A stretch of DNA of 64,000 nucleotides from Spiroplasma endosymbiont of Cantharis nigra (GTDB lineage Bacteria > Bacillota_I > Bacilli_A > Mycoplasmatales > Mycoplasmataceae). The notes below the pieces were generated by a model, which saw only the letters and a list, made by a program, of their open reading frames with translations, was not told the origin of the DNA and searched no databases. The stretch covers positions 186,001 through 250,000 of the forward strand of contig NZ_OZ026470.1 in assembly GCF_964019925.1 (NCBI RefSeq), written 5' to 3'. The translations under genes were made by a program, and so were the position numbers. Shown piece after piece: positions 32,059-51,479 of the stretch; position 1 is the stretch's first letter, and every line of letters begins with the position of its first letter.

Positions 32059-35000
32059 ATGAAAAAAGTAAATATAGGATTAGATTTAGGAATTGCTTCT
32101 TTAGGTTGATCAATAGTTGAGATAGATACTAAGGAAATTATTGATGCAGGAATTTATCTATTCGAAGAAGCAAATAATTCAAACTCTTCAACAACATCAA
32201 GCTCTGATAGAAGAGCAATAAGGTCAAGAAGACGTATGTTAAGAAGAAGAAATTTGAGAAAAAGAGACTTATTAATTAAATTTAAGGAGCTAAATTTAAT
32301 TAATAGTACTGAAGATTTTTATAAAATTGATAGAAATATTGACTATCTAGAAATCAGAAAAAAAGCATTAGTAGAACAAATTAGTAAAGATGAGTTAATG
32401 TTAATACTTTTTAATTACCTTAAACATCGAGGTAGTTTTAATTTTAAAGATGATTTACAAGAAATTAAAAAAATTAGTGATGATGAAATATCTATTGAAG
32501 ATATTTCATCAAAAAAGTTATCGCCAATTGAGCTCCACTTATCTTTTAAGGAAAAATATAATAAATATAGGGGAGAAAAAATTAAAAATGATGAAAACTC
32601 TTTAATAAATCATGAATGATATATTGAGGAAATAAATTTAATTTTCGATAAGCAAATAAGTTTTGATAAAAGTTTAGAAAATTTAAAAGAAGAATTTTTT
32701 AAAATTTATAATAGAAAAAGAAATTACTATGATGGACCAGGATATCAAAATAAGAAAAATAATATTTTAAGCCCCTATGGTTGAAAAGATGAGATAGATT
32801 TTTTTGATAGACTAGCTGGAAAAGACACTTATGATAATAATGAACTTAGAGCTCCAAAACATTGTTTAACAAGTTACTTATTTAATATATTAAATGATTT
32901 AAATAATCTAAAAATTGAATCATTAGAAGAAGGTTTATCAAGAGAACAAAAAGAGTATATTATTGAAAGTGCTATTAATCATGATAGCAAAAAAGCAAAA
33001 AACATTAGTTTAAAAGAGATTGCTAAATTCTTACAAGTAGATTCAAATACAATTAAGGGCTATAGAATAAACACTAAGGATGAACCAATTTTTACAGAAT
33101 TTGAATCTATTAACAAAATTAGAAGAAAATTATTAGTTGATAATGAAGATTATAGTTTTTTATCATTAAAAAATATAAATGAAATTGACAAAATTTGTGA
33201 AATTTTAACTAAATATCAATCTATTGATAATAGAGTCGAAGAATTAGTAAAATCACTATCGCATTTTTTGACAAAAAGACAATGTGAGTTAATTGGAGAA
33301 ATTTCATTAACAGGGACACATTCTTTATCAATTAAAACAATGAATAAAGTAATTGAACATACTTGAACTGAAAATAAAGAGCAAATGGAAGTTTTTAAAG
33401 ATTTGGGAATGAAACCAGATTATAAATTCTCTAAACTAGCATTTACTAATTTAAAAACTATTCCTGTATTTAGAAAAAAAATTAGTGAAATGTATATTTC
33501 TCCAGTGGTTAAAAGGTCTTTTATTCAAACTCTAAATTTAATTAAAGAAATAGAGAAAAATTATAAAAATATTGAGATTAAAAATATTGTTATTGAATTA
33601 GCTCGTGAAAAAAATTCAGAAGATATTCGTCTATTTAAAACTAGAATTAATAAAGAAAATGAAGATAATAAAAAAATAGTTAATAGTGCCTATGGTTTAG
33701 ATTTCTCATCTTCTAATTCTAGTAGTTTTAAAGGACCATCAAAAAATACTTTACTAAAATTTATGCTTCTAAATGAACAAGATAATAAGTGCATTTATTC
33801 TGGTAAAACTATTGATATTGATAGATTAAAAACTGATGAAAACTATTGTGAGATTGATCATATAATTCCTCTATCAAAGTCTTTCGATGACTCACGTACA
33901 AATAAAGTTTTATGTCTTAGAGAAGAAAACCAAAATAAAGGTCAAATGACACCTTATGAATATTTTAGAAAAATAGGGAGAAATTGAGAAGAGTTCAAGA
34001 TGAGATGTTTAACTACTTATCTTTCTAAAAATAAATCAAAGTACTTTTTTACTAAAGTATATGAAAATTTATTTCTTGAAGATGATTTAAATACTTTTGC
34101 AGCACAACAAAAATTTATTAGTAGAAATTTAAATGATACAAGATATGCAACAGTTGAGGTTAAAAACTATTTAAATTTTTTCAAAAAAGAACTAAAAAAA
34201 GAGTGAAAAATTAAAGTTATTAATGGTAAATTTACTGCATATTTGAGAAATAAAGTCTTTTATATTCAAAAAGATAGAAATCAATTTAAACATCATGGAA
34301 TTGATGCAACTATTATAGCTTTATCTTCTTTAATTAAATTAAGTAAATCTAAAAATATTTTGGATATTTTAGAACCTAATTTAAAAGACCAAGAAGAATC
34401 AATTGAATTAGACTATGATAAATTGAAAAGCGAATATGCAGTATTAGGTAGCAAAATTGATAATTTTGATTATAAGTTTTCTAAGAAAACTTTAGGTAGA
34501 ACTAACTTAAATTTATTTGATGAAACTATTTACTCAGCAAAAGTTATAGATAATAAAGTTTATAAGAAACGTAAATTTGACCTTTTTGAATCAAATGGTC
34601 AACAACTTGATAAACATTTAAATAAAAATTTTGAAAATGTTTTAATGTATCAAAATGATAAAAAAACTTTTTCATACTTAAAAGAGATTTTTAATGAGTA
34701 TTATAATAAAACTTGAAAAGATGAAAATAATAAGGAACATAAAATTACAAACCCATTTGTCTATTATAGAGATATTTTGGGTAAAAAAATAGAAAAACAG
34801 TCTAATGAAGAAAAAAGACCAGAAATTACAAAGATTACGTACTTACAGGGTGCTGAGATATATTATGATATAAGTCATAAGTATAAAAACATTAAAAAAG
34901 ATAAAAAAGTTATTATGACCTCAATGAACTCGTTAGCTTGAGATTTATTTTATAATAAGCACATTAATAAATATAAAATATTGCCAATTAATGCAAAAGT

Positions 35001-35325
35001 TGCCTATTTTAATTTTATTTCTAATGATAAAAGGGATATAGTAATTAATGAAGAAAACTATAAGAAATGTAAACAAGATATAAAAATTACTAAGGACTTT
35101 CAATATCTATTCAGACTAAAAAAATATGATGAAATTGAATTTGATTATGATGGGGTTCATGAGAGATTTATTATTGTGGGATTTGATTTAAACAAAGAAA
35201 GGATGGAATTAAAATATATTAATAGATTCAATGAAAAAAGTGAAAGAAAATCAATTAGTAAGGTTAAAAATCTTATTAAAATAAATTCAAATATTACAAA
35301 AACAAAAATGAAAATTTTTAAATAA
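32059..35325 (+). CDS. cas9: CRISPR-associated endonuclease Cas9
   Basis: 1088 residues in table 4, a compact Cas9. Start after AAAGGGGAAAAAAT. RuvC-I with Asp9 in NIGLDLGIASLGW; arginine-rich bridge helix RRAIRSRRRMLRRRNLRKR (about 52-70); alpha-helical REC lobe; RuvC-II Glu513 in IVIELAREKN; HNH with Asp600-His601 in YCEIDHIIPLSKSFDDSRTNK and Asn615; RuvC-III His746 and Asp749 in KHHGIDATIIAL; C-terminal PAM-interacting region. All catalytic residues are present. Cuts DNA guided by crRNA and the tracrRNA encoded directly downstream. The gene order cas9-cas1-cas2-csn2 assigns the system to type II-A. Intact and apparently functional; an IS remnant upstream suggests acquisition as part of the island. 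Confidence 0.97.
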
Positions 35326-35354
35326 TTAAAAAATTTATGTTATTATAAATATGT

Positions 35355-35447
35355 ATATGAAAAAAGTTCTACTACTACATAATTTTACAGGACTGTCATA
35401 TATAAGGCTTTAATGCCGGACACGAGGGTTTTTAACCCTCTTTTTTT
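35355..35447 (+). ncRNA. tracrRNA
   Basis: Bases 35366-35391 (GTTCTACTACTACATAATTT...) are the exact complement of the 3' two thirds of the CRISPR repeat except the last base or two, followed by TGTCAT that pairs, with one G-U, with ATGGCA near the repeat's 5' end; between them a small bulge forms. Then comes a short hairpin GGC-TTTAAT-GCC (nexus) and a terminal stem GAGGGTT/AACCCTC with seven Ts. This is the layout of type II tracrRNAs. The 5' end is not certain; a TATTATAAAT -10-like sequence at 35341-35350 would start RNA near 35356. Same strand as cas9. Confidence 0.92.
35424..35447 (+). terminator. tracrRNA terminator
   Basis: GAGGGTT-TTT-AACCCTC stem followed by TTTTTTT. It ends the tracrRNA before cas1. 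Confidence 0.92.
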
Positions 35448-35476
35448 ATTTTAAAATAAGAAAGGGGGATATTTAA

Positions 35477-36382
35477 ATGTCCTGAAAAATTATTGTTATA
35501 AAGAATGGTGAAAGTACTAGTCTTTTTTTAAATAATTTAGTAGTTAAACAAATTAATAATAATTTACAAATTCCATTAGGAGATATTAATGTTGTAATTT
35601 ATGAAAATTACAAAACAAACATTACAACTAGAATATTAGCAAAATTGGCTGAATATAAAATTTTAACAATTATTTGTGATGAAAATTTAATGCCTGCTTG
35701 TATTATGCAACCATATAAAGGAAATTTTCAGCAACAAAAAATAATTAGAGATCAATTAAATTGAACTAATAATCAAAAATTAATATTTTGAACTTATATT
35801 GTAAAAAGTAAATTGGAATCACAAATTGATATATTGAAGAAGAATAATAAGCCAAAAGATAGATGACAAATCATTTTTAATTATATTGATGAGATTAAAA
35901 AAGGAGATCCAACAAATAGAGAAGCACATGCTGCAAAAATCTATTTTAATACTTTATTTGGAAATAATTTTAAGAGAGATGATGAAAATCATATAAATAG
36001 TGCATTAAATTTTGGATATATTATATTGAGATCAGCTTTTTGCAGAGCAATTGTATCAAAGGGATTGCATCCGACAATATCGCTTTTTCATCACAATAAA
36101 TATAATTCATTTGCTTTGGCAGATGATTTAATGGAGCCTTTTAGACCAATTGTTGATGACTTTGTTTATCTTAATATTACTCAAAATGATTATTTTTCTA
36201 GAAATGACAAAATAGGTTTAATTAACTTATTAAATTCACAAATTATTTTTAACTCAAAAAAGGTATACTTAACTCAAGCAATTAATGAATATGTTGATAA
36301 GGTAATAAATCACTTTGAAAAAAACGACTTTCAAAATTTTATTTATCCATTAGTATCATCAGTTGAATACTATGAACTATAG
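35477..36382 (+). CDS. cas1: CRISPR adaptation integrase Cas1
   Basis: 301 residues. Start after AAAGGGGGATATTTAA. Type II Cas1 motifs: SLFLNNLVVKQ near the N-terminus; REAHAAKIYFNTLFG with the metal-binding Glu; ALNFGYIILRSAFCRAIVSKGLHPTISLFHHNKYNSFALADDLMEPFRPIVDDFV with the His and Asp/Glu of the active site. It integrates new spacers with Cas2 at the leader-repeat junction. Its 3' end overlaps cas2. Confidence 0.96.
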
Positions 36383-36695
36383 ATTTATGAGATTAATGGT
36401 TTTTTATGATTTACCTTTTGATTCAAAAAATAATATAAGAGATTATAATCGCTTTAGAAATAATTTACTTAGTGAAGGTTTTCAAATGATGCAATTTTCA
36501 ATTTATACAAAAATGTGTCCTAATGATGATTCAGCTAGATATGCTGCTAAAAGAATAGAAAAAATATTGCCGTCTTTTGGTAATATCAGACTTTTAGCTA
36601 TTACAGAAAAACAATATCAAAAAATAAATATTTTAAGAGGAAAAAAAAGCAAACAAGAGTTATTAATTGATTTAAGGAGGTTTTTAGAACTCTAA
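36372..36695 (+). CDS. cas2: CRISPR adaptation protein Cas2
   Basis: 107 residues from the ATG at 36372 (a TTG three codons upstream is an alternative). MRLMVFYDLPFDSKNNIRDYNRFRNNLLSEGFQMMQFSIYTKMCP is the typical Cas2 beginning with its conserved Asp after the first strand. Overlaps cas1 by 11 nt and csn2 by 1 nt (TAATG), so the adaptation genes are translationally coupled. Confidence 0.96.
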   Translation: MNYRFMRLMVFYDLPFDSKNNIRDYNRFRNNLLSEGFQMMQFSIYTKMCPNDDSARYAAKRIEKILPSFGNIRLLAITEKQYQKINILRGKKSKQELLIDLRRFLEL

Positions 36696-37648
36696 TGAAA
36701 ATTAAAATTAACAATTATAATGATATAAAATTTAATCTACAAAATAAAAATATCTTTATATTAAATGATCAAGATTTAAATAATCATCTCTGAAATATAT
36801 TTGAAAATATTACAAATAGTAAGTTAGATACGAATGAATATAAAATACTATTTGAAGATAATGATATAATTATCAACAAAACAACTCATAAAATATTTAA
36901 AATTCCTAGTTATCTTGATTTTTACAAGGATATACAAAATAATAACAAAAGTATATTTAAAGAATTAATAGCATTAGTTTTAAATAATGATTTATTTGAA
37001 AATGAAAATTTAAAGATTTTACTATCAATAATTCATACTCTTGATTTAACAGAATTAACAGGTATTAATACATTAAAAGTAAATTTAGAAAAAGTATCTA
37101 AATTAAATGTTGAAATAGGAGTAAATGATTTTTTAGTGAATTATTTGGTAGATAATGTATATCTAAATTTTATAAATGAGAATGAAATTATTAATAATAA
37201 ATTAAATCAAAAAACTTTGAAGCAAATTTACTTGGAAATATTAAAATTGCTTGGACAATTAAATAATAAAGATTATCTCTACTTCTTTAATAATCCTTTT
37301 GAAGGATTATTTATTGAAGAAGAAGAAAGTTTTATTCAAAATATTAGTATGTTAAATAATTTCATAATAGTTACAGATAGACTTCATACTTTTGATTTAG
37401 AATTAGTAAAGAATATTAAAATATGTATGTCAAAGATAATTGATATCTCAGATATTATAGATAATATTGAAGAATATATACTCTATTCTGATATAAGTAA
37501 TCAAAATATTTTTTTGGAGTATATAAGTACGTTGCTATTTAAATTAATAGATAACAATGTTTTTTTATATAAGGAATATACTAATAAAATGTCTCTAATT
37601 TTTAATATAAAAGAGATGGAAATATTGGAAGCTATATTTAATAGATAA
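36695..37648 (+). CDS. csn2: Csn2, type II-A adaptation protein, long form
   Basis: 317 residues, clearly longer than the ~220-residue streptococcal Csn2 and near the long Csn2 forms. Assigned by position (after cas2, before the array) and by the acidic segment FFNNPFEGLFIEEEESFIQNI and the FIIVTDRLHTFDLELVKNIKI stretch with helical C-terminus. Csn2 forms a DNA-end-binding ring that helps Cas1-Cas2-Cas9 spacer capture. Start codon overlaps the cas2 stop. It ends only 35 nt before the first repeat. Confidence 0.88.
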
Positions 37649-37683: not shown

Positions 37684-40600
37684 GTTATGGCACCCTGTAA
37701 AATTATGTAGTAGTAGAACTTTATTCTTTCGTCTATATATTTTTTATAAGTTATGGCACCCTGTAAAATTATGTAGTAGTAGAACAATTCTAAATTAAAA
37801 GTTTTATTTTTATAAGTTATGGCACCCTGTAAAATTATGTAGTAGTAGAACTTTAAAAAAACCAGAAGATAAAAAAATCAAGTTATGGCACCCTGTAAAA
37901 TTATGTAGTAGTAGAACCACCAATATACTGGTTGTAATCCATAACCAGTTATGGCACCCTGTAAAATTATGTAGTAGTAGAACAATTTTGTATCATACTC
38001 AAAAAATGAGAACGTTATGGCACCCTGTAAAATTATGTAGTAGTAGAACGCTTTTATGATTTTTACTCATTGAAAAGCTGTTATGGCACCCTGTAAAATT
38101 ATGTAGTAGTAGAACGTTAATGAAAGCGATTGATTTTTATTACACGTTATGGCACCCTGTAAAATTATGTAGTAGTAGAACGTAAGAGTACATTTGCATT
38201 TGATATTGGAGGTTATGGCACCCTGTAAAATTATGTAGTAGTAGAACGAAAAATCAATTAATGCTCTACCAGCACGAGTTATGGCACCCTGTAAAATTAT
38301 GTAGTAGTAGAACGCTACTAATGAATTAGACCCAGATAATGATGTTATGGCACCCTGTAAAATTATGTAGTAGTAGAACAGTTGAATAAAAAGTTATCAT
38401 ATTTCCACTGTTATGGCACCCTGTAAAATTATGTAGTAGTAGAACAATAAATTAAATACAGCAATTATTAATATTGTTATGGCACCCTGTAAAATTATGT
38501 AGTAGTAGAACCATAGAATGTAATGGAAAAGTATGTTAAGTGTTATGGCACCCTGTAAAATTATGTAGTAGTAGAACTGAGTATTTGTTGTTGTCAAATG
38601 TTGATATGTTATGGCACCCTGTAAAATTATGTAGTAGTAGAACAATTAATCTAAATTAATTACTCCTTAATTCGTTATGGCACCCTGTAAAATTATGTAG
38701 TAGTAGAACATATTCTCACTTGTTTGAAATACCAGAGAAGTTATGGCACCCTGTAAAATTATGTAGTAGTAGAACAAAATGAGAAGGTTACTTCTGAGTT
38801 GGAGTGTTATGGCACCCTGTAAAATTATGTAGTAGTAGAACTCTATATTCCAACTTTGATTATGTAAATATGTTATGGCACCCTGTAAAATTATGTAGTA
38901 GTAGAACAAAATGAGAAGGTTACTTCTGAGTTGGAATGTTATGGCACCCTGTAAAATTATGTAGTAGTAGAACAGGATTCTCTACAAGGTCAGGATTCTC
39001 TCTGTTATGGCACCCTGTAAAATTATGTAGTAGTAGAACGAATATACATAATTACACAAATAATACGTAGTTATGGCACCCTGTAAAATTATGTAGTAGT
39101 AGAACTAATAGGGTATGCATAAAACAATACATAGAGTTATGGCACCCTGTAAAATTATGTAGTAGTAGAACCTTCCAGCATTAACAATTCCATTAACAGC
39201 AGTTATGGCACCCTGTAAAATTATGTAGTAGTAGAACAGATATTAAAGGTATAGATTTAGGTTGTTTGTTATGGCACCCTGTAAAATTATGTAGTAGTAG
39301 AACGCAGAAAAGAGATGAGGTTAATCAGACTTTGTTATGGCACCCTGTAAAATTATGTAGTAGTAGAACCTCAATCATGACAACAATACAGCATCCACCG
39401 TTATGGCACCCTGTAAAATTATGTAGTAGTAGAACGTTTTGGCAAAATACTTGCTCGTCATAATCGTTATGGCACCCTGTAAAATTATGTAGTAGTAGAA
39501 CTTTATCAGCATCAATCTTCGTCTATGCATTGTTATGGCACCCTGTAAAATTATGTAGTAGTAGAACAAAAAGAATATTATCATTCTAATGCTTTAAGTT
39601 ATGGCACCCTGTAAAATTATGTAGTAGTAGAACGCATTAGAAGCAACCAATACTCACTTAGTTGTTATGGCACCCTGTAAAATTATGTAGTAGTAGAACT
39701 CCACCAAATACACCTTGACCAAAGTTAATGTTATGGCACCCTGTAAAATTATGTAGTAGTAGAACACTTTAAGCAAAAATATTGTTTCTTTTCCTGTTAT
39801 GGCACCCTGTAAAATTATGTAGTAGTAGAACTTAAATTAACATCATTTAATGCAGGTAGTGGTTATGGCACCCTGTAAAATTATGTAGTAGTAGAACTAA
39901 TTTATTAAAGCTCTCTTGGTCTATTGGGTTATGGCACCCTGTAAAATTATGTAGTAGTAGAACCTATATTACTTTGTTTTTCTAAAATTTCTTGTTATGG
40001 CACCCTGTAAAATTATGTAGTAGTAGAACAAAAAGAATATTATCATTCTAATGCTTTAAGTTATGGCACCCTGTAAAATTATGTAGTAGTAGAACGCATT
40101 AGAAGCAACCAATACTCACTTAGTTGTTATGGCACCCTGTAAAATTATGTAGTAGTAGAACGCTTTCATATCTCCAAACCAAATCATCGGTGTTATGGCA
40201 CCCTGTAAAATTATGTAGTAGTAGAACTCCACCAAATACACCTTGACCAAAGTTAATGTTATGGCACCCTGTAAAATTATGTAGTAGTAGAACACTTTAA
40301 GCAAAAATATTGTTTCTTTTCCTGTTATGGCACCCTGTAAAATTATGTAGTAGTAGAACTAATTTATTAAAGCTCTCTTGGTCTATTGGGTTATGGCACC
40401 CTGTAAAATTATGTAGTAGTAGAACTTTATCAGCATCAATCTTCGTCCATACATTGTTATGGCACCCTGTAAAATTATGTAGTAGTAGAACTTATTACCA
40501 ACAATCCATACCAACCTATCTGTTATGGCACCCTGTAAAATTATGTAGTAGTAGAACATTCTCCTTTGTCCTTAGGACTACTTATATGTTATGGCACCCT

Positions 40601-43600
40601 GTAAAATTATGTAGTAGTAGAACATTGAATTATTAGATTGAATAGATTACTATGTTATGGCACCCTGTAAAATTATGTAGTAGTAGAACGTTTATCAATT
40701 AAAGGTAATATACCTATGTGTTATGGCACCCTGTAAAATTATGTAGTAGTAGAACTTATAAAACAATGGATTTAATGGAATGAAAGTTATGGCACCCTGT
40801 AAAATTATGTAGTAGTAGAACAGCAAAAATTGAAGATAGTTCTTTAATATCGTTATGGCACCCTGTAAAATTATGTAGTAGTAGAACTGCTACTAAAAAA
40901 TCTTGTCATGTTCATAAGTTATGGCACCCTGTAAAATTATGTAGTAGTAGAACGAAAAAGAACAAGATAGTATATTTGAACCTGTTATGGCACCCTGTAA
41001 AATTATGTAGTAGTAGAACAGGTTGAAATAACCTATTTAAAAAAGTGCTGTTATGGCACCCTGTAAAATTATGTAGTAGTAGAACTCTTTCTAATTGTTT
41101 AGCACATACTGCAGTGTTATGGCACCCTGTAAAATTATGTAGTAGTAGAACTGGATTAGGATTATCAACACCTTCAAGGTAGTTATGGCACCCTGTAAAA
41201 TTATGTAGTAGTAGAACTGTAATTCTTGTTTTGTTTTCATAAGAACCGTTATGGCACCCTGTAAAATTATGTAGTAGTAGAACTAAAGATTGATTTATAG
41301 ATTATTCAGATAAGTTATGGCACCCTGTAAAATTATGTAGTAGTAGAACATGATACAGAATTCAAAATCTAAATCATTCGTTATGGCACCCTGTAAAATT
41401 ATGTAGTAGTAGAACATATAAAGTAGGAATTTGTCCTAATTGTGAGTTATGGCACCCTGTAAAATTATGTAGTAGTAGAACAAAGTTGGGTACTCAATAT
41501 CAAGTTTTTTAGTTATGGCACCCTGTAAAATTATGTAGTAGTAGAACAGATTGTAAATAGTTATTTATATTATGGTTGTTATGGCACCCTGTAAAATTAT
41601 GTAGTAGTAGAACTTAAATTAACATCATTTAATGCAGGTAGTGGTTATGGCACCCTGTAAAATTATGTAGTAGTAGAACTCTTGCTTTATTTTTGTTTTC
41701 AGTTAATTCGTTATGGCACCCTGTAAAATTATGTAGTAGTAGAACAAATTCCCACAATTATAGCAAAAATGAACTGTTATGGCACCCTGTAAAATTATGT
41801 AGTAGTAGAACTCTATATCTCAGCTTTGATTATGCAAATAAGTTATGGCACCCTGTAAAATTATGTAGTAGTAGAACACAAGGTAATTGTTAAAAAAAAG
41901 TCAGTAGGTTATGGCACCCTGTAAAATTATGTAGTAGTAGAACAATTACAAAATTATTATTCAGTCAAGGGATGTTATGGCACCCTGTAAAATTATGTAG
42001 TAGTAGAACAATTACAAAATTATTATTCAGTCAAGGGATGTTATGGCACCCTGTAAAATTATGTAGTAGTAGAACCAGATTTTTAAAATTATGTAATATA
42101 CACTTGTTATGGCACCCTGTAAAATTATGTAGTAGTAGAACTTAAAACTCTTGAGGAGTTAATAAAATTAAGTTATGGCACCCTGTAAAATTATGTAGTA
42201 GTAGAACAAAAATAAATAAACCATTATTATCATAATAGTTATGGCACCCTGTAAAATTATGTAGTAGTAGAACAGCTTCACTGCCAAAAAATGCAGATAC
42301 TCCGTTATGGCACCCTGTAAAATTATGTAGTAGTAGAACAAATTCAAAATCTCAAGTCCCATTGATATAGTTATGGCACCCTGTAAAATTATGTAGTAGT
42401 AGAACAATAAAGTTATGAAAATAATCTATTCAATTGTTATGGCACCCTGTAAAATTATGTAGTAGTAGAACAAATTACTAAATATAGTGGAAAATACTTT
42501 AGTTATGGCACCCTGTAAAATTATGTAGTAGTAGAACACATATATACAGTAATAACAAATATAGAGAGTTATGGCACCCTGTAAAATTATGTAGTAGTAG
42601 AACTCTTTATATCTTAAAAAGATATATAAGTCTGTTATGGCACCCTGTAAAATTATGTAGTAGTAGAACAACTTGATCTATGATTAAATTTGTATATTCG
42701 TTATGGCACCCTGTAAAATTATGTAGTAGTAGAACGGTGAAGAGTTTTATTATAAAATTAGAGTAGTTATGGCACCCTGTAAAATTATGTAGTAGTAGAA
42801 CTTTGACCTTTTGGAAACATTGCACTAAATCGTTATGGCACCCTGTAAAATTATGTAGTAGTAGAACTAGAAAAGGTAATTTAAAACCTTTAACTAAGTT
42901 ATGGCACCCTGTAAAATTATGTAGTAGTAGAACAAATATATGCTTAGAGACTTGTAGAGAGATGTTATGGCACCCTGTAAAATTATGTAGTAGTAGAACG
43001 AAGCACTAATAAGAAGAAAAGAAATGCAAGTTATGGCACCCTGTAAAATTATGTAGTAGTAGAACCGTTACTTTTTCATTAATGCTTTATTCAATGTTAT
43101 GGCACCCTGTAAAATTATGTAGTAGTAGAACTTTTGAAAAATGTTCTTCGCACACAACTTGGTTATGGCACCCTGTAAAATTATGTAGTAGTAGAACTAT
43201 AAAACCTTTATATCTTAAAGCTTTGTGGTTATGGCACCCTGTAAAATTATGTAGTAGTAGAACTCTCAAAAGATGTTGGAATTAGAAAAAGTAGTTATGG
43301 CACCCTGTAAAATTATGTAGTAGTAGAACAATCTTGTATCATACTCAAAAAATGAGGACGTTATGGCACCCTGTAAAATTATGTAGTAGTAGAACGGAGA
43401 AAAGAAAAATGATAAAAGACATTAGGTTATGGCACCCTGTAAAATTATGTAGTAGTAGAACGAATTTATTTAAATCTTCTAAAATATCATAGTTATGGCA
43501 CCCTGTAAAATTATGTAGTAGTAGAACCAAATCAAAATCAAATTTCTAATCTTATTAGTTATGGCACCCTGTAAAATTATGTAGTAGTAGAACAGCAACA

Positions 43601-44123
43601 CCACCAGTTGAACCACCAATTTAGTTATGGCACCCTGTAAAATTATGTAGTAGTAGAACTTTATTGATGAATTTAATTTATCTGGTTCTGTTATGGCACC
43701 CTGTAAAATTATCTAGTAGTAGAACAATATCTAATCCAGATATAAAATGAGAGGTGTTATGGAACCCTGTAAAATTATCTAGTAGTAGAACAATCTCCAT
43801 TATGGTCTGAACGGATGGACTGTTATGGCGCACCCTGTAAAATTATGTAGTAGTAGAACTTTTTATTGATGTATAATAAAACAAAAGTTGTTATGGCACC
43901 CTGTAAAATTATGTAGTAGTAGAACTTATTTTAAAAACAGATGTAATATACTTATGTTATGGCACCCTGTAAAATTATGTAGTAGTAGAACTTCATCTCT
44001 TGTTAATCATTTAATGAAAACGTTATGGCACCCTGTAAAATTATGTAGTAGTAGAACAATAAAATACTACTTTACCAGTTTCTTTATGTTATGGCACCCT
44101 GTAAAATTATGTAGTAGTAGAAA
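37684..44123 (+). CRISPR. Type II-A CRISPR array, 98 repeats / 97 spacers
   Basis: 36-nt repeats beginning GTTATGGCACCCTG and ending TAGTAGTAGAAC; spacers are 30 nt, giving a strict 66-nt period from 37684 to 44088 apart from one 2-nt insertion. Repeats at 43690 and 43756 have G to C (TATCTAG), the one at 43756 also GGAACCC, the one at 43822 carries an extra GC (GGCGCACCC), and the last one (44088-44123) ends AAA in place of AAC. Degeneration on the right marks the trailer; the leader and transcription start are on the left. Spacers repeated exactly: 39568=40030, 39634=40096, 39700=40228, 39766=40294, 39898=40360, 39832=41614, 41944=42010. Near-identical pairs are described in the findings. 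Confidence 0.99.
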
Positions 44124-44344
44124 TTTCTTGTTAGAAGAACATATTAAAATTAGGATATTTAAAATATTTCTTAAATTAATATAAAATATTTATAAGTTTA
44201 AAAAACTTAAATAAGAAATAAATACATTAGATACTTAATAATTCAAATCAAAAATATAAAGCCTATTTTTTATTTTATATTAATTAACATTTTTTTTGTT
44301 CAAATAAAATTAAAATAAATTTATTTGATAGAGGAGACTTATAG

Positions 44345-45154
44345 ATGAATATATTGAATTTAATCAAAGAGAAGGAAAATGAATTATCTCCTCAAGAGAA
44401 AAAAGTTATTTATTTCATAAGAGATAATCTAAATAACTTTAGTGATATTTCAATAAAAAATATCTCAAAGCAATTAAATGTTCAAGAAAGTGTAATAACT
44501 AAAACCTTATCTAAAATAGGAATAGGGGGTTTTAAAAATTTAAAGCATATTTTACAAGATTCTTACTATTCGGTTGACAATAAATTAATAAATAAGCAAA
44601 GTATTGATATATATTTCAACAAGATAATTGAAAATATTAACTCAATAAAAAAATTTCTTAATAGTGATTCAATTTTAGAATTATCAAATTTAATTACAAG
44701 TAATAATCCAGAAATTATTTTTTTTGCAACGGGTAAAACCGCAAAAGTTATTGAACCATTTTTCTTTAATCTATTAGAGTTAAATTTTAAAGTAAAGTTA
44801 GAAACATCTTTATATAATCATCAAATATATGATGTGGAAAATAAACTTGTAATTGTTTTCACTATTTCTGGAAAAAACTCAAAGGTTTTTAGATATTTAA
44901 ATTTGATTAAAGAAAGAAAACCATTAAGAATTGTAGGAATAAGTACAAATGAGTCTTTTGCAAATGATTTATTAGATGAACATATTTATGGCACTGTAAA
45001 AAGTTTTTTTACAGACAATAGTAGATCAACACCATTAATAGAAAAATATACAATTCAATTAATATGTGATGCACTTTTATTAATGATTATTTCCAAGTCA
45101 AGTAATAAACATTTGGAAATGAGAGAAAAAATTGCAACTAAAAATAAAGAGTAA
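44345..45154 (+). CDS. RpiR/MurR family regulator
   Basis: 269 residues. N-terminal helix-turn-helix (FSDISIKNISKQLNVQESVITKTLSKIGIGGFKNLKHIL, about residues 37-72) and a SIS domain (EIIFFATGKTAKVIEPFFFNLL; KLVIVFTISGKNSKVFRYLN; LRIVGISTN) that in this family binds phosphosugars. Start after GAGGAGACTTATAG. It lies 90 nt upstream of the PTS EIICB gene and probably controls it. Confidence 0.87.
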   Translation: MNILNLIKEKENELSPQEKKVIYFIRDNLNNFSDISIKNISKQLNVQESVITKTLSKIGIGGFKNLKHILQDSYYSVDNKLINKQSIDIYFNKIIENINSIKKFLNSDSILELSNLITSNNPEIIFFATGKTAKVIEPFFFNLLELNFKVKLETSLYNHQIYDVENKLVIVFTISGKNSKVFRYLNLIKERKPLRIVGISTNESFANDLLDEHIYGTVKSFFTDNSRSTPLIEKYTIQLICDALLLMIISKSSNKHLEMREKIATKNKE

Positions 45155-45198
45155 TTTAAATAATTTATATTTTATGTAAAAAATATAAATTATTTAAA
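45155..45198. promoter_or_regulatory. Perfect 19-bp inverted repeat before PTS gene
   Basis: Arms TTTAAATAATTTATATTTT and its exact complement separated by 6 nt, starting 1 nt after the regulator's stop codon. No T-run follows on the plus strand, so an operator for the RpiR protein or an RNA hairpin is as likely as a terminator. Confidence 0.6.
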
Positions 45199-45244
45199 TT
45201 AGAAAATTACCTTTAAATGAATAAAATTTATTTGGGAGGTAATA

Positions 45245-46888
45245 ATGAATAAAAAGATTAAAAAAGCAAAATTTAAAAGTTTTCTTACTAATTTACGAAG
45301 TGGTTTAGAACAATTTGGGAGAGCTATATTAGTTCCAGTAACAGTTATTCCACTTTTAGCTTTAATAGGTTCAATTGGTTATGCAGGTCAAGCAATTGCA
45401 ACTGAAGTGGGAACTTATAGTGGTGGTACAAAAATTGCTTTAGATGCTATTAAAAATATTGGTATGATAGCAATTACAAATATTGACTTTTTAGTGGCTA
45501 TTGGGTTAGCTGCTGGACTTGCAAAATCTGAAAAGGTTTCTGCAGCTTTATCAGGTATTATGGCATATGCAGCAATGCACTTTGCTGCAAATTTAATGCT
45601 TCAAGTTGTTTATCCAGAAATGTTAAAAAATGCAAAAGAGTATGGTTTGATTACAAGATTTGGAGTAGTTTCATTTCAATATAGTGCTTTTGGGGGAATG
45701 GTTGCAGGACTGATTGGTTATTATATTCATAAGCATACTTATAAATTAAAATTTCCAGCATTTCTATCATTTTTTGGTGGACCAAGATTTTCACCAGTAG
45801 CGTCAACTTTAGTAGCATGATTTATTGGTATGCCAATAGGGGTTGCTTGAATATATATTAATCAAGGTTTAAAATCAATTGGTGAATCTTGACAACATAT
45901 GGGAGCAGGAGCACCGCTCTTATATGGAATGGCAAATCGAGCTTTAATTCCCTTTGGCTTACACCAAGTGATTAATTATTTCTTATATTATACTTCAGTT
46001 GGTGCAACTTGAGTAAATGGTGAAGGCGTTGCTATTGAAGGGATTTATAATATTGCTATTGCAAAATTAGGAGAAGGTGTCTTTATTACTGCAAAAGATA
46101 CTTGGATTGTTAATGGAACGTTTCCAACTAATATCTTTAGTTTAGGGGGAGCTTCAATGGCAATGTATATGTGTATTCCAAAAGAGAATAGAAAAGTTGC
46201 TGGTGGAGCAATTATTTCAGCAATGCTAGCTTCAGCTTTAGCTGGAACTACCGAGCCAATTGAATTTACATTTTTATTTACAGCTCCTGTATTATATGTA
46301 TTACATGTAATTTTTACAGGAATGACTTATATGAGTATGTACTTATGTGGCTTTGCACAAGTTTCTACCAGGGGTAGTGGTATTATTACGTGACTGGCAG
46401 TGGATGCAATGAACTTTAAAAATATTCAAAATGTTTGAGGTTTATTTATAGTAGGACCAATTGCTGGAGCCATATATTTTGGATCATTTTATCTATTAAT
46501 AAAAAAATTTAATTACAATACACCAGGAAGAGATGGTCAAATAGCTGTAATGGGTGAACAAGATAATTCCAAAATACAAGAAAACATTTTAGAAAAAAAC
46601 GAAGAAAAAGCAAGACCTAAAAATAATAAAAAAGAAGAATATGATGAAGAGTTTATTTTAAATATTATTAATGGATGTGGGGGAAAAGAAAATATTAAGA
46701 TAATGGCAAATTGTATTACAAGATTAAGAGTGACATTAATTGATAAAGAAAAATTTAATTTAGATATAATTAATAAAACAAAACCTTATGGAGTTAAAGA
46801 AATAGGAAATCAAAAGCAAATTATTTATGGTCCCAGAGTTACTAATATTGCAACTATGGTTAGAGAATATTTAGGAGTTGAAGACTAA
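45245..46888 (+). CDS. PTS transporter EIICB, glucose/alpha-glucoside type
   Basis: 547 residues, start after GGGAGGTAATA. EIIC membrane domain first: LEQFGRAILVPVTVIPLLALIG, GVVSFQYSAFGGMVAGLIGYY, NRALIPFGLHQVIN (the conserved family signature), ASALAGTTEPIEFTFLFTAPVLYV (substrate-binding region). After a charged linker (about residues 435-470) comes EIIB with Cys490 in IMANCITRLRVTL. Family pattern is PtsG/MalX (glucose, maltose or glucosamine-like sugars). No EIIA is attached; a separate Crr protein must phosphorylate it. It is the first gene of a tightly packed set with the phosphatase, MreB-like and membrane genes. Confidence 0.88.
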
Positions 46889-47407
46889 ATGCCTTTTATA
46901 AAAATTACAAATAATTTATATCTAGGTGATCAATTTTCAAATAAACTTAAAACAAAACATAAGGAATTAAAAATAAGTAATATATATTATGATATGTTAA
47001 AACACCAATATGCAAATAAGCAAAATACTATTTATAATGATTATTTTGTAAAAATAGATGATAAACTAGCTTTGAATTTATTAGACTCACATGATCCATC
47101 TGATTTTAATGACTATAAGTTTGCCTTAGCAATAAAGTTTATCAGCGAAAATATTGAAAACAATTTAATTTATACACACTGTCAACTTGGTGTTAGTAGA
47201 AGTGCTTCAACTATATTCATATATTTAGTAATTAGTAAAACTTTAAATTTTAGTAGTTTTGAACAAGCTTTAAATGAATATTTAACAAAAATATATCCTT
47301 ATATGAAAGTTAATTATGGTGTTTATAACTATCTAAAAAATAATTTTCCGTATACCAAAGTTAAAAACCTTTCTAAAAAGACATGAGGTGATTTACTTGC
47401 ATATTAG
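46889..47407 (+). CDS. Dual-specificity-type protein phosphatase
   Basis: 172 residues with TGA at 47384 read as Trp. Begins directly after the EIICB stop (TAAATG). Starts with MPFIKITNNLYLGDQFSN, typical of eukaryotic-like dual-specificity phosphatases, and contains the P-loop HCQLGVSRSAS with nucleophile Cys98 and Arg104 (HCx5R). An Asp in the segment LLDSHDPSDFNDYKF (about 66-78) could be the general acid. Such enzymes remove phosphate from Ser/Thr/Tyr in proteins, or act on phosphoinositides or sugars. The coupling to a PTS gene suggests control of phosphorylated substrate or protein; this is inference. Confidence 0.85.
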
Positions 47408-48137
47408 TTATATTGATTTTGATTGAGATAAGGTAATTGCATATGATAATAATTTTAATGAAATTTTTAGAGAAAGTTGTTTAATTCTAAGGGACTTAAG
47501 AAATTATGAAGTACTTTTTATTGGAGAAGAAGCAATAAAAAATTTAAAAAAAGAGGGAAACTTTATTGCAATAAACTTTACAGAAAACTCAAAAATTGTA
47601 TCAGAGGAAGACTTTATATTGTTTATTAGTTATTTTAAAAATAAATATAAGCTAATTGATTTTCCAATAATAATTGATAGATATAAAAAAGCAAATTTTT
47701 TTGAAACAAATAATTTAAAATTTATTGAGCTATCACAGTTTTATTCAAATAGAGGAAATGAATTTGGTTTTATTGATTTGAGAAATTCAGATTTAAATAT
47801 ATACAATAAGGAATTAAATGAACTATTTAAATATAATTTAGGAAAAATAAAAATATTGAATTTATTAAATAGATATTTTTATTTAAATTTCAATTCAACT
47901 TTAAATACAAAAAAAACAAAAGATTTATTAAAAAAAATATGTGAAGGTGAAAAAGTTACTAGTGTTACTTGTAGAAATTTTAGTACAGGTCAAGATAATG
48001 ATATTTTAATTACAAACGTAAAAAAACTAACAAAAGAATTAGAAAAACAATTAAGTGCAATTTTAAAAGATGTATTTAATTTTAAAAGATATAGTATGAA
48101 TTTGGATGCACAGGAGGTATTAAATTATGTTAATTAG
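47397..48137 (+). CDS. Divergent, truncated MreB/actin-like protein
   Basis: 246 residues from the TTG at 47397 (preceded by GAGG); a GTG at 47388 is also possible. Segments align in order with MreB: ISYIDFDWDKVIAYDNN (phosphate-1 strand pair), YEVLFIGEEAIKNLKKEGNFIAI (MreB 'VGEEAkxMxGRTPgNI'), FPIIIDRYKKANFFE, LKFIELSQFYSNRG (the 'EPMAAAIG' position), GFIDLRNSDLNIY (the 'DIGGGTT' position), and near the end VTCRNFSTGQDNDILITNVKKLTKEL (MreB 'GRDLVTGLPK...E'). The protein stops there, without the C-terminal nucleotide-site subdomain. The nucleotide loops are poorly conserved, so ATP binding is doubtful. Overlaps both neighbours. Homology is inferred by eye. Confidence 0.6.
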
Positions 48138-48330
48138 TTTAATTATATTTCTAAGTATTTCTACTATTTTATTTATGTGTTCATTTATAATTTTATTTAT
48201 AAATAAACATAAAAAAAATCCTAATTTTAAATTAGAAAGTAATAATAAGTCTTTTATTAAGTTTATGCCAATAGCCTTATTTTGTTCAGGTTTACTTGTT
48301 TTATTTGTGGGACTAGCCACCTATATATAG
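48127..48330 (+). CDS. Small two-helix membrane protein
   Basis: 67 residues with GGAGG (48113-48117) upstream, starting 11 nt before the end of the MreB-like gene. Two hydrophobic segments (MLISLIIFLSISTILFMCSF, and FMPIALFCSGLLVLFVGLAT) linked by a basic loop. Overlap and ribosome site support a real gene in the same operon; it could anchor the MreB-like protein to the membrane, which is inference only. Confidence 0.65.
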   Translation: MLISLIIFLSISTILFMCSFIILFINKHKKNPNFKLESNNKSFIKFMPIALFCSGLLVLFVGLATYI

Positions 48331-48350
48331 ATTATAATTGGATACTTTTA

Positions 48351-48386
48351 AAACATATTCCATAAATTTGTGAATATGTTTTTTAT
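48351..48386 (+). terminator. Terminator of PTS-phosphatase-MreB-like operon
   Basis: AAACATATTC / GAATATGTTT stem with an 11-nt loop, followed by TTTTATT. Confidence 0.8.
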
Positions 48387-48683: not shown

Positions 48684-51479
48684 ATGAAAAAATTATTATC
48701 AATTTTATCTGCAATAGCATTTACTGCTTCAACATCATCAGCTGTTGTAAGCTGTAATTCAACTTCAGATAATACAAAAAACATTGATAAGATTATCAAA
48801 AAGAAGGATTTAGGTAAAATTAACAATGTAAGTGAGAATATTTTAAAAAAAGCACTTAAAGAGAATAATCCAAAAGTGGATGTTGATAAATTAGCACTAA
48901 AAGATGTTGATTTATTTAATGGAAATGCAGTATTTGTTGCCAAAAATAAAGCAGCTGATTATTCTGGAGAAGCTCGTGTTAAATTTGATTTTGGTAATAG
49001 AAAAGCAGATTCTCAATATTTATGAGAAGCTATTACAAATACTTGATTGGGAACAATTGACAAAAATGATGAAAAAACAATCAAAGAAGAGTTAAAAGGA
49101 CTTAATCCTTTACTTAATACAGACCAATTAGAAGTTAAAAATATTAATTCATGAGGGGCTACAATTGAAGCAAAGAGTGATTCAACTCTTTATAAAGGTC
49201 AATCAACAGTTTCTTATAGTGTAATTAATGATGCATCTTCTTCAAAAAAAGCACTTTCTTCTGTAGTAAAAAACAGTTGATTAGGTGATATTAGTGTTGG
49301 TGCAAACAAAGAAGAAACTGAAAGAAATATATTAACTGCTTTAGAGCAAAAAAATAGTGGCATTAAAACTAGTGAGTTAGAAGTTAGATCAATAAGTGAT
49401 TGAGGAGCACAAGTAAGTGCTAAACAAAACTCAGAGGTATATCAAGATGAATGCTATATTAGTTTTACTTTAAAAGGAAATTCAGCAGGTCAAGGAGCAG
49501 GAGCAACTTCACTTTATAATGAAGTTAAAACAACATGATTGGGTAGTGTTTCAGATACAAAAGAAGCAACAATTATGGAAGCTGTTAAAAGAAGTAATCC
49601 AAACTTAGATACTAGTAAATTAACTTTAAAAGGTACTAATCAATATAACTCAATTTTAATTCCTAATGAGGAAGGTAAATCTAAATATAAAGATGAAGTA
49701 TGACTTTCATATGGTATTTCAGAAAATGCTAAACCATTTGAAAAAGAAGAATTAAGTAAAGTTATTGAAAATAAAAACTTTGATACAAATTCAGCTATTA
49801 AATTAGCAGAAGGTGAAGAACTAAAAGATTTAAAAGTAAAAGAATTAGTTTACAATTCAAATAGAAGTATAGATTCAAATCAAATTGAAATCTCTGATAT
49901 AACAGAAATTTTAAGTGATAATAATAAATATCAAAAATTCTCAGCAAAAGTAAATGCTAAAGAAAACTCATATAGTTATAAAGGATCTACTGAGATTAAT
50001 TTCTATACTTCAACAACTGTTATAGAGGCCAAAGAATTAAGCAATGTTATTGAAAACAATAAGTTGGGTGAACTTAATGAAAATACAGAAGCTACAATTC
50101 TAAGTACTTTAGTAGAAAAAAACCCAAACTTAGACTTAGGAAGTATTGAAGTTAAAAATATAACACAAACAAGTGCAACTATTAATTCTATTAGTGAAAG
50201 CAAAATTTATAAAGGTTCTGTTGAAGTTAACTTTACAGTTAAACAAGAAGAAGTTGTACCTGAAAATAAAAAAGATTTAGCCGATGACTTAAAAGTAACT
50301 GATTTAGGAGAACTTGATGACGCAAATACATCAACAATCTTGGATGCAGTTTATGGCAAAAATAAAAATGTAATAAAAAATGAAATTGAAGTTAAAAATA
50401 TTACTGCAACTGGAGCAAAAATTAAAGCAAAAGCAAAATCTGAATTTTATAAAGAAGAGTCTGAAGTTTTAATTACTTATACTTTAAAAGCTAATGGTGA
50501 AAAACCAAAACCATCTAATGACGCTTTATTAGTAGGATACTGATATGAGTGAGGTGGAGCAGAACAACACAATAATCCAGTTGATCTATTAAATAGTAAT
50601 GAATTATTAAATTCTGCATATAATGTAATTGATATTTCATTCTTATATACATGAGAACCATATGCAATGCCTACTTTTGAACCATTTAGTCCAACAAGCA
50701 AAACTAGAATTAAAGAAGGAATTAAATCTTTACAAAATGCTGGTAAAAAAGTAATTCTATCAATGGGTGGAGCTACTGGTGGAGAAATGAGATTTAGACA
50801 AGATCAAACTGATCAATTAACTGCTACATTTATTAAGTACATGGATGAATATGGTTTTGATGGAATTGATATAGATTGAGAAGGTGGAGCACTTGGGGAT
50901 AGAGAAAGTCAACAAACTACAATCTCAGCTTTAAAAGAAGCTAAAAAAATTCAAAACTCAAAGGGTAAAGAATTTATGTTAACAATGGCTCCAGAATTAC
51001 CGTACTTAAAATATAATACAGAAGCTGGTAGTCAAGGAAGTTATATTCCTTTCTTAAAAGGACTTGATGGTATTTATGATTTTATTAATCCTCAATACTA
51101 TAATGGATGAGCATTTGGAACATTTATTGATCAAGAAGAAAAAGACTATTTAGGAGTTAATAAATCTTATATTTCAAATGATGATAGTGAGTATAGAGGA
51201 GAATTCTACTACTTAGTAACAAAATATTTAACAACAAAATATAGTTCTCAAAATGATTTCTATGAAAAAATTCCAACAAATAAATTTGTTTTAGGAGCTG
51301 CTACTAATGAAGCTGCAGGTAGAGGTGCAGCAACAAGAGAATCAATTTATAAAGCATATGTTTTATTAGAAAATGACAATATTCACATTCGTGGATTAAT
51401 GACATGAGCTATTAACTTTGATGCTGTTGCAAATTGAATGTTTGAAGCTTGATTCAAAGAAACTTGAGGAAATAAATAG
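48684..51479 (+). CDS. Surface lipoprotein with spiralin-like repeats and GH18 chitinase domain
   Basis: 931 residues. Lipoprotein signal MKKLLSILSAIAFTASTSSAVVSC with the lipid-accepting Cys24. Residues about 25-610 consist of about seven degenerate repeats of ~75 residues, each with a pattern like LGxI....TI..AL...NP.LD...L.VKNI......YKG...V.FTV, as in spiralin-type surface proteins. The C-terminal ~320 residues form a GH18 barrel: KKVILSMGG, catalytic FDGIDIDWEGG (Asp726, Asp729, Asp731, Glu733), and MTWAINFDAVANW near the end. GH18 enzymes cleave beta-1,4 GlcNAc polymers such as chitin; in an arthropod-associated mollicute the enzyme would sit on the cell surface on a spiralin-repeat stalk. 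All catalytic acids are present. Transcribed alone with its own terminator. Confidence 0.9.

Follow-up and report, generated by a model that had tools for sequence, protein, structure and literature searches.

Why a PTS sugar permease should be followed directly by a phosphatase and a relative of MreB, and whether such a set ties sugar sensing to the cytoskeleton or to a signalling complex at the membrane, is the question raised by the locus described here. The window analysed is a stretch of 64,000 nucleotides (186001–250000) from a Spiroplasma-type genome of 1,237,520 bp (G000) that reads TGA as Trp, and genes were called under code 4. The sequence-only reading had described one unit made of EIICB, a phosphatase, an MreB-like protein and a two-helix protein, joined by 0-nt spacing and 10–11-nt overlaps and ending at one terminator. 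These four components were recovered, but the unit is larger, since rpiR is conserved together with them (Table 1). The spacing held as claimed: DSP begins immediately behind the stop codon of EIICB (0 nt), and the DSP/MreL and MreL/two-helix peptide overlaps are 11 nt each. A hairpin with a T-rich tail was likewise located at the end of the unit, which the consensus scanner missed because the stem is AT-rich. The start of MreL is most likely TTG 47397 rather than the longer alternative GTG 47388, because the matching place is ATG in other species. Between G000 and G002, dN/dS was 0.11 for RpiR, 0.10 for EIICB, 0.34 for DSP, 0.27 for MreL and 0.23 for the peptide, and all five frames are gap-free, and they are therefore real genes. 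The inverted repeat between rpiR and EIICB, which has a z of -7.0 as RNA, recurs in a 19-bp version in G002 and was not found in the remaining operon loci; its sharing by two genomes does not establish a conserved RpiR operator. Further upstream, the window contains a Cas9-like ORF (1088 aa), a Cas1-like ORF (301 aa) and a possible Csn2-like ORF, all named by eye (32059–37648), and behind them a CRISPR array with a 66-nt period (about 40522–44184), which ends just upstream of rpiR.

Table 1. Features of the rpiR–EIICB–DSP–MreL locus (positions in the window).
Feature	Position	Strand	Remarks
rpiR, RpiR-family transcription regulator	44345..45154	+	HTH_6 and weak SIS domain
22-bp AT-only perfect inverted repeat	45152..45201	.	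Between rpiR and EIICB; candidate operator or hairpin
PTS EIICB permease, glucose/maltose/GlcNAc family	45245..46888	+	547 aa; PTS_EIIC and PTS_EIIB
DSP, dual-specificity (VH1/DUSP-like) phosphatase	46889..47407	+	172 aa; HCQLGVSRS, general-acid Asp66
MreL, MreB-derived actin-fold protein without nucleotide-binding motifs	47397..48137	+	TTG start
Two-helix membrane peptide, 67 aa	48127..48330	+	Same-layout peptide behind MreL in 10/10 PTS-type copies
Hairpin and T-run, likely terminator	48350..48385	+	-11.2 kcal/mol, z -3.9

A total of 60 genomes of the family were surveyed, with a wider set of 320 genomes of the order. The EIICB subgroup, defined at ≥57% identity, was detected in 10 of the 60 family genomes (G000, G001, G002, G004, G015, G017, G030, G043, G054 and G055), spanning four GTDB genera, while the next-best EIICB outside the subgroup is 32% identical. 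In each of the ten, DSP, MreL and the two-helix peptide come after EIICB, and rpiR lies upstream; two opposite-strand genes lie between rpiR and EIICB in G001, EIICB is split by a stop in G004, and stops occur in both EIICB and DSP in G015. The sequence-only reading had named a gene order unique to one strain as the outcome that would speak against it, and the order recurs in ten genomes. The flanking genes differ from species to species among the operon copies, so general synteny does not account for the shared order; nor is the locus a product of chance, because the same order is found in 10 genomes of four genera, in different neighbourhoods, with its frames under purifying selection. Within the 60 family genomes, an intact MreL without the subgroup EIICB was observed only in G042 and G037, and the association (10/10 with EIICB versus 2/50 without) has a hypergeometric value of about 1e-9, which is not a true probability as the genomes are related. 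MreL was found in 15 of the 320 genomes of the order, all 15 of them in this family. Broken or fragmentary copies were observed in G015, G045, G040, G039 and G034, the last four carrying remnants. MreL and DSP are 69% and 74% identical, respectively, between G000 and G002, against 99.4% for DnaK. Overall, these comparisons support five genes that behave as one co-inherited unit in several wall-less bacteria (Spiroplasma and Mesoplasma). No description of the operon was found among the open-licence papers searched, which does not prove that the set is new.

The phosphatase alignment led to two Mesoplasma loci, in Mesoplasma grammopterae (G030) and Mesoplasma seiffertii (G054), while a peptide-pattern search of the genome contigs with MreL alone gave no match. 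In Mesoplasma grammopterae, DnaK shares 89% identity with the proteins of G054 and G055, the other two Mesoplasma-group carriers, and 78–82% with those of genus g1 Spiroplasma. For EIICB the picture is reversed, with 71–82% identity to copies from g1 against 59% to those of the other two Mesoplasma-group carriers, and the MreL tree joins this species to G017 (support 96/95). Because the EIICB is Spiroplasma-like although DnaK is not, the operon of this species appears to have been transferred as a unit, and movement between genera would be the simplest reading of these trees and identities.

The permease itself was readily recognised, with 148.1 bits for PTS_EIIC (cut-off 30.7), 45.3 bits for PTS_EIIB (cut-off 27) and the EIIB motif NCITRLR. 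Assignment of its sugar by the sugar-specific NCBIfam equivalog models missed every cut-off, the Glc, maltose and GlcNAc models scoring 275–285 bits, below all cut-offs of 553–632. RpiR carries HTH_6 (57.1 bits, cut-off 28.3), with SIS at 14.5 bits, below the cut-off of 25. In every carrier genome, EIIA proteins are encoded away from the operon. Downstream, the window encodes a lipoprotein that combines repeated MAG1450-like domains with a GH18 chitinase-like domain at the C-terminus (48684–51479); a chitin or GlcNAc reading through this neighbour was dropped, as it is not conserved beside the operon.

DSP scores 35.3 bits for DSPc (PF00782) against the curated cut-off of 33.5, and Foldseek matches it to DUSPs (E about 1e-5), with a fold like that of human DUSPs; by sequence as well as by fold it comes closest to DUSPs that act as protein phosphatases and to the pseudophosphatase STYX. 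The residues D66, H97, C98 and R104 are invariant in all eight intact PTS-linked copies aligned, and a ninth intact PTS-linked copy (G043) keeps HCx5R as HCQRGVSRS. The PTS-linked DSP is, on this evidence, a VH1-like member of the DUSP family with a predicted intact active site. A second DUSP-like phosphatase was observed in 20/20 genomes of genus g1 and in most other Spiroplasma-type genomes (e.g., L055 5997–6443), near a GH1 gene in several loci examined.

MreL (P0003) has no Pfam match, so the curated cut-off of PF06723 is not reached and its descent is visible only to profile methods. A profile of 12 MreLs searched against PDB gave MreB as the top match (E 6.5e-5), and hhalign of the MreL profile against Spiroplasma MreBs gave 95% probability. 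The best structural matches of the AF2 model (pLDDT 92.3) were all MreB, with Z scores of 16.3 to Geobacillus stearothermophilus MreB (240/246 residues, rmsd 3.2, MreB 6–300) and 15.5 to S. eriocheiris MreB3, and MreL genuinely descends from MreB. The earlier description of it as truncated is right in that the C-terminal end of MreB is gone, and many loops are shortened, but the full-length model still aligns to MreB 6–300. In an alignment with nine MreBs, the phosphate-1 (DxGT), phosphate-2 (GGGT) and adenosine (GGG) motifs were missing from 13/13 MreLs, whereas they are present in most Spiroplasma MreBs of the same alignment. The phosphate-1 loop reads IDFDW, IDIDW, IKFGNY or IELGSY in place of DLGT, and the phosphate-2 loop IDLRNSDLNIY or VDVKTRKTVIY in place of DIGGGTTD. 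This loss suggests that MreL is a pseudo-actin, for which nucleotide binding or normal polymerisation is very unlikely. Weak MreL matches in G001 and G025 were true MreBs, and a match in G032 (E 0.001), which runs across another gene, was put down to chance.

A variant of the locus was found in genus g8, where in three genomes (G042, G037 and G043) the DSP–MreL pair follows the gene of a many-helix membrane protein of 503 aa, with no PTS; G043 holds both this pair and the full PTS-type operon. The 503-aa partner matched no Pfam or NCBIfam family. All three g8 DSP copies read ACYDGISQS, having lost the His and Arg of HCx5R (L048 6200–6703, L049 5722–6225 and L050 7197–7697), so that their active site is predicted to be dead and catalysis would be dispensable in one lineage. 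Purifying selection nevertheless acts on the pair (dN/dS 0.16 for DSP and 0.19 for MreL), and in the DSP tree the g8 copies fall inside the PTS-linked group, beside G054/G055 (support 95/94). A phosphatase that is dead yet kept under purifying selection suggests that the pair serves in binding. The constant element is DSP and MreL next to a membrane protein, and the two appear to form a portable module that attaches to a membrane transporter.

The explanation that we tentatively prefer, with slightly less than even confidence, is that the locus represents a PTS operon that is self-contained and moves horizontally, and in which a DSP docked by MreL at the permease would tune transport or signalling according to sugar. 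The operon would consist of the RpiR regulator and the glucose-family EIICB, joined by an accessory module of three genes, those for DSP, MreL and the two-helix peptide. RpiR-family regulators exert control in response to sugar phosphate, and the RpiR here would control the unit in this way, while EIICB would import the sugar with an EIIA encoded elsewhere in the genome; both steps are standard for their families. From there on we infer the complex, the substrate of DSP and the effect: MreL may no longer polymerise and may serve as a rigid, nucleotide-free actin-fold adaptor that binds DSP and, anchored by the two-helix peptide, brings it to the membrane at the permease; there DSP would remove phosphate from a partner phospho-protein and thereby tune transport or signalling with sugar. 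DSP would thus be the catalytic partner in the PTS-type operon and a binding partner in g8. In favour of this stand the obligate linkage with differing flanks, the apparent transfer as a unit, the invariant DSP residues, the loss of motifs from every MreL, the g8 pair and the EIIA encoded elsewhere. Against it, the fast divergence of MreL and DSP could also mean weak constraint, and shared inheritance of an operon is not proof of a physical complex.

The main rival, which we regard as unlikely but serious, takes DSP for a metabolic phosphatase acting on the sugar phosphate imported by EIICB, whether to relieve stress or to free sugar into another pathway, with MreL as an accessory or a leftover. 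Enzymes of the PTP fold with non-protein substrates exist, such as laforin and the PTP-like phytases, and the strict linkage to one permease subgroup and the active site kept in the eight aligned PTS-linked copies would suit such a role. However, the best matches of DSP are the protein-phosphatase DUSPs and STYX, MreL is kept everywhere, and the g8 pair combines MreL with a dead DSP without any PTS, which argues against this reading as the whole story. A little less probable is that DSP and MreL are a portable regulatory module in which the nucleotide-free actin fold holds the eukaryote-like DSP on the transporter and DSP acts directly on it, possible targets being the phospho-cysteine of EIIB or some phospho-protein close by, with the g8 pair and its dead phosphatase re-used on another membrane protein.

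A coupling of sugar sensing to the MreB cytoskeleton, in which MreL would, for example, cap or join MreB filaments and DSP would act on MreB, is improbable. MreL is derived from MreB, and the Spiroplasma carriers possess about five full-length MreBs, yet the nucleotide motifs are lost in all MreLs, and MreL is absent from most Spiroplasma genomes with full MreB sets. In addition, mreB and fib were reported lost in Mesoplasma (PMC6117150). Our Pfam search detected one MreB-family protein in each of the carriers G030 and G055, without nucleotide motifs; since this sole family member is degenerate, the operon occurs in genomes that lack a canonical MreB. One such degenerate protein, of about 320–350 aa, is kept in Mesoplasma and related non-helical genomes (L096, at G030:C1:286000–289500, L097 and L098), and it adjoins dnaN/rsmA-type genes in L096 and L097. 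Of the two possibilities put forward in the sequence-only reading, a membrane-bound signalling or regulatory complex around the permease is thus plausible for a unit co-inherited in 10 genomes, while the cytoskeleton link is not supported, given the motif loss, the carriers without canonical MreB and the g8 pair placed at another membrane protein. That DSP, MreL and the peptide are decaying hitchhikers without joint function would fit their fast divergence and the five genomes with broken or fragmentary copies, but is similarly improbable in view of dN/dS values of 0.23–0.34 between G000 and G002 and 0.16–0.19 for the g8 pair, and of a unit kept across four genera and never separated from EIICB.

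Bacterial actins are studied as nucleotide-driven filaments, and a conserved MreB descendant without a nucleotide pocket, encoded in a sugar-transport operon and tied to a phosphatase, would, if the preferred reading is true, represent a non-filament use of the MreB fold as well as a novel mode of PTS permease regulation. The annotation is also corrected, since neither Pfam nor NCBIfam recognises MreL, which would otherwise be entered as a hypothetical protein.

A comparison with known systems places each part in a familiar family. The locus shares with glucose-family PTS EIICB operons the EIIC–EIIB order, the NCITRLR motif, the upstream RpiR and an EIIA elsewhere, but it differs in the three extra genes always behind EIICB and in a sugar that is not assignable from sequence. 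DSP resembles the VH1-like DUSPs (DUSP3/10/22 and STYX) in HCx5R(S), the general-acid Asp and the DUSP fold, whereas it is bacterial and is encoded in a PTS operon beside an actin-fold partner, and the g8 copies depart further, with ACYDGISQS instead of HCQLGVSRS. MreL shares its fold over almost its whole length with MreB and MreB1–5 of Spiroplasma (PF06723), its best profile matches, but it has about 240–250 aa against 330–350 for MreB and lies in a PTS operon. PilM and FtsA are actin-fold proteins that bind the tails of membrane proteins rather than forming classical filaments, and MreL may be likened to such adaptors by its proposed role rather than by sequence.
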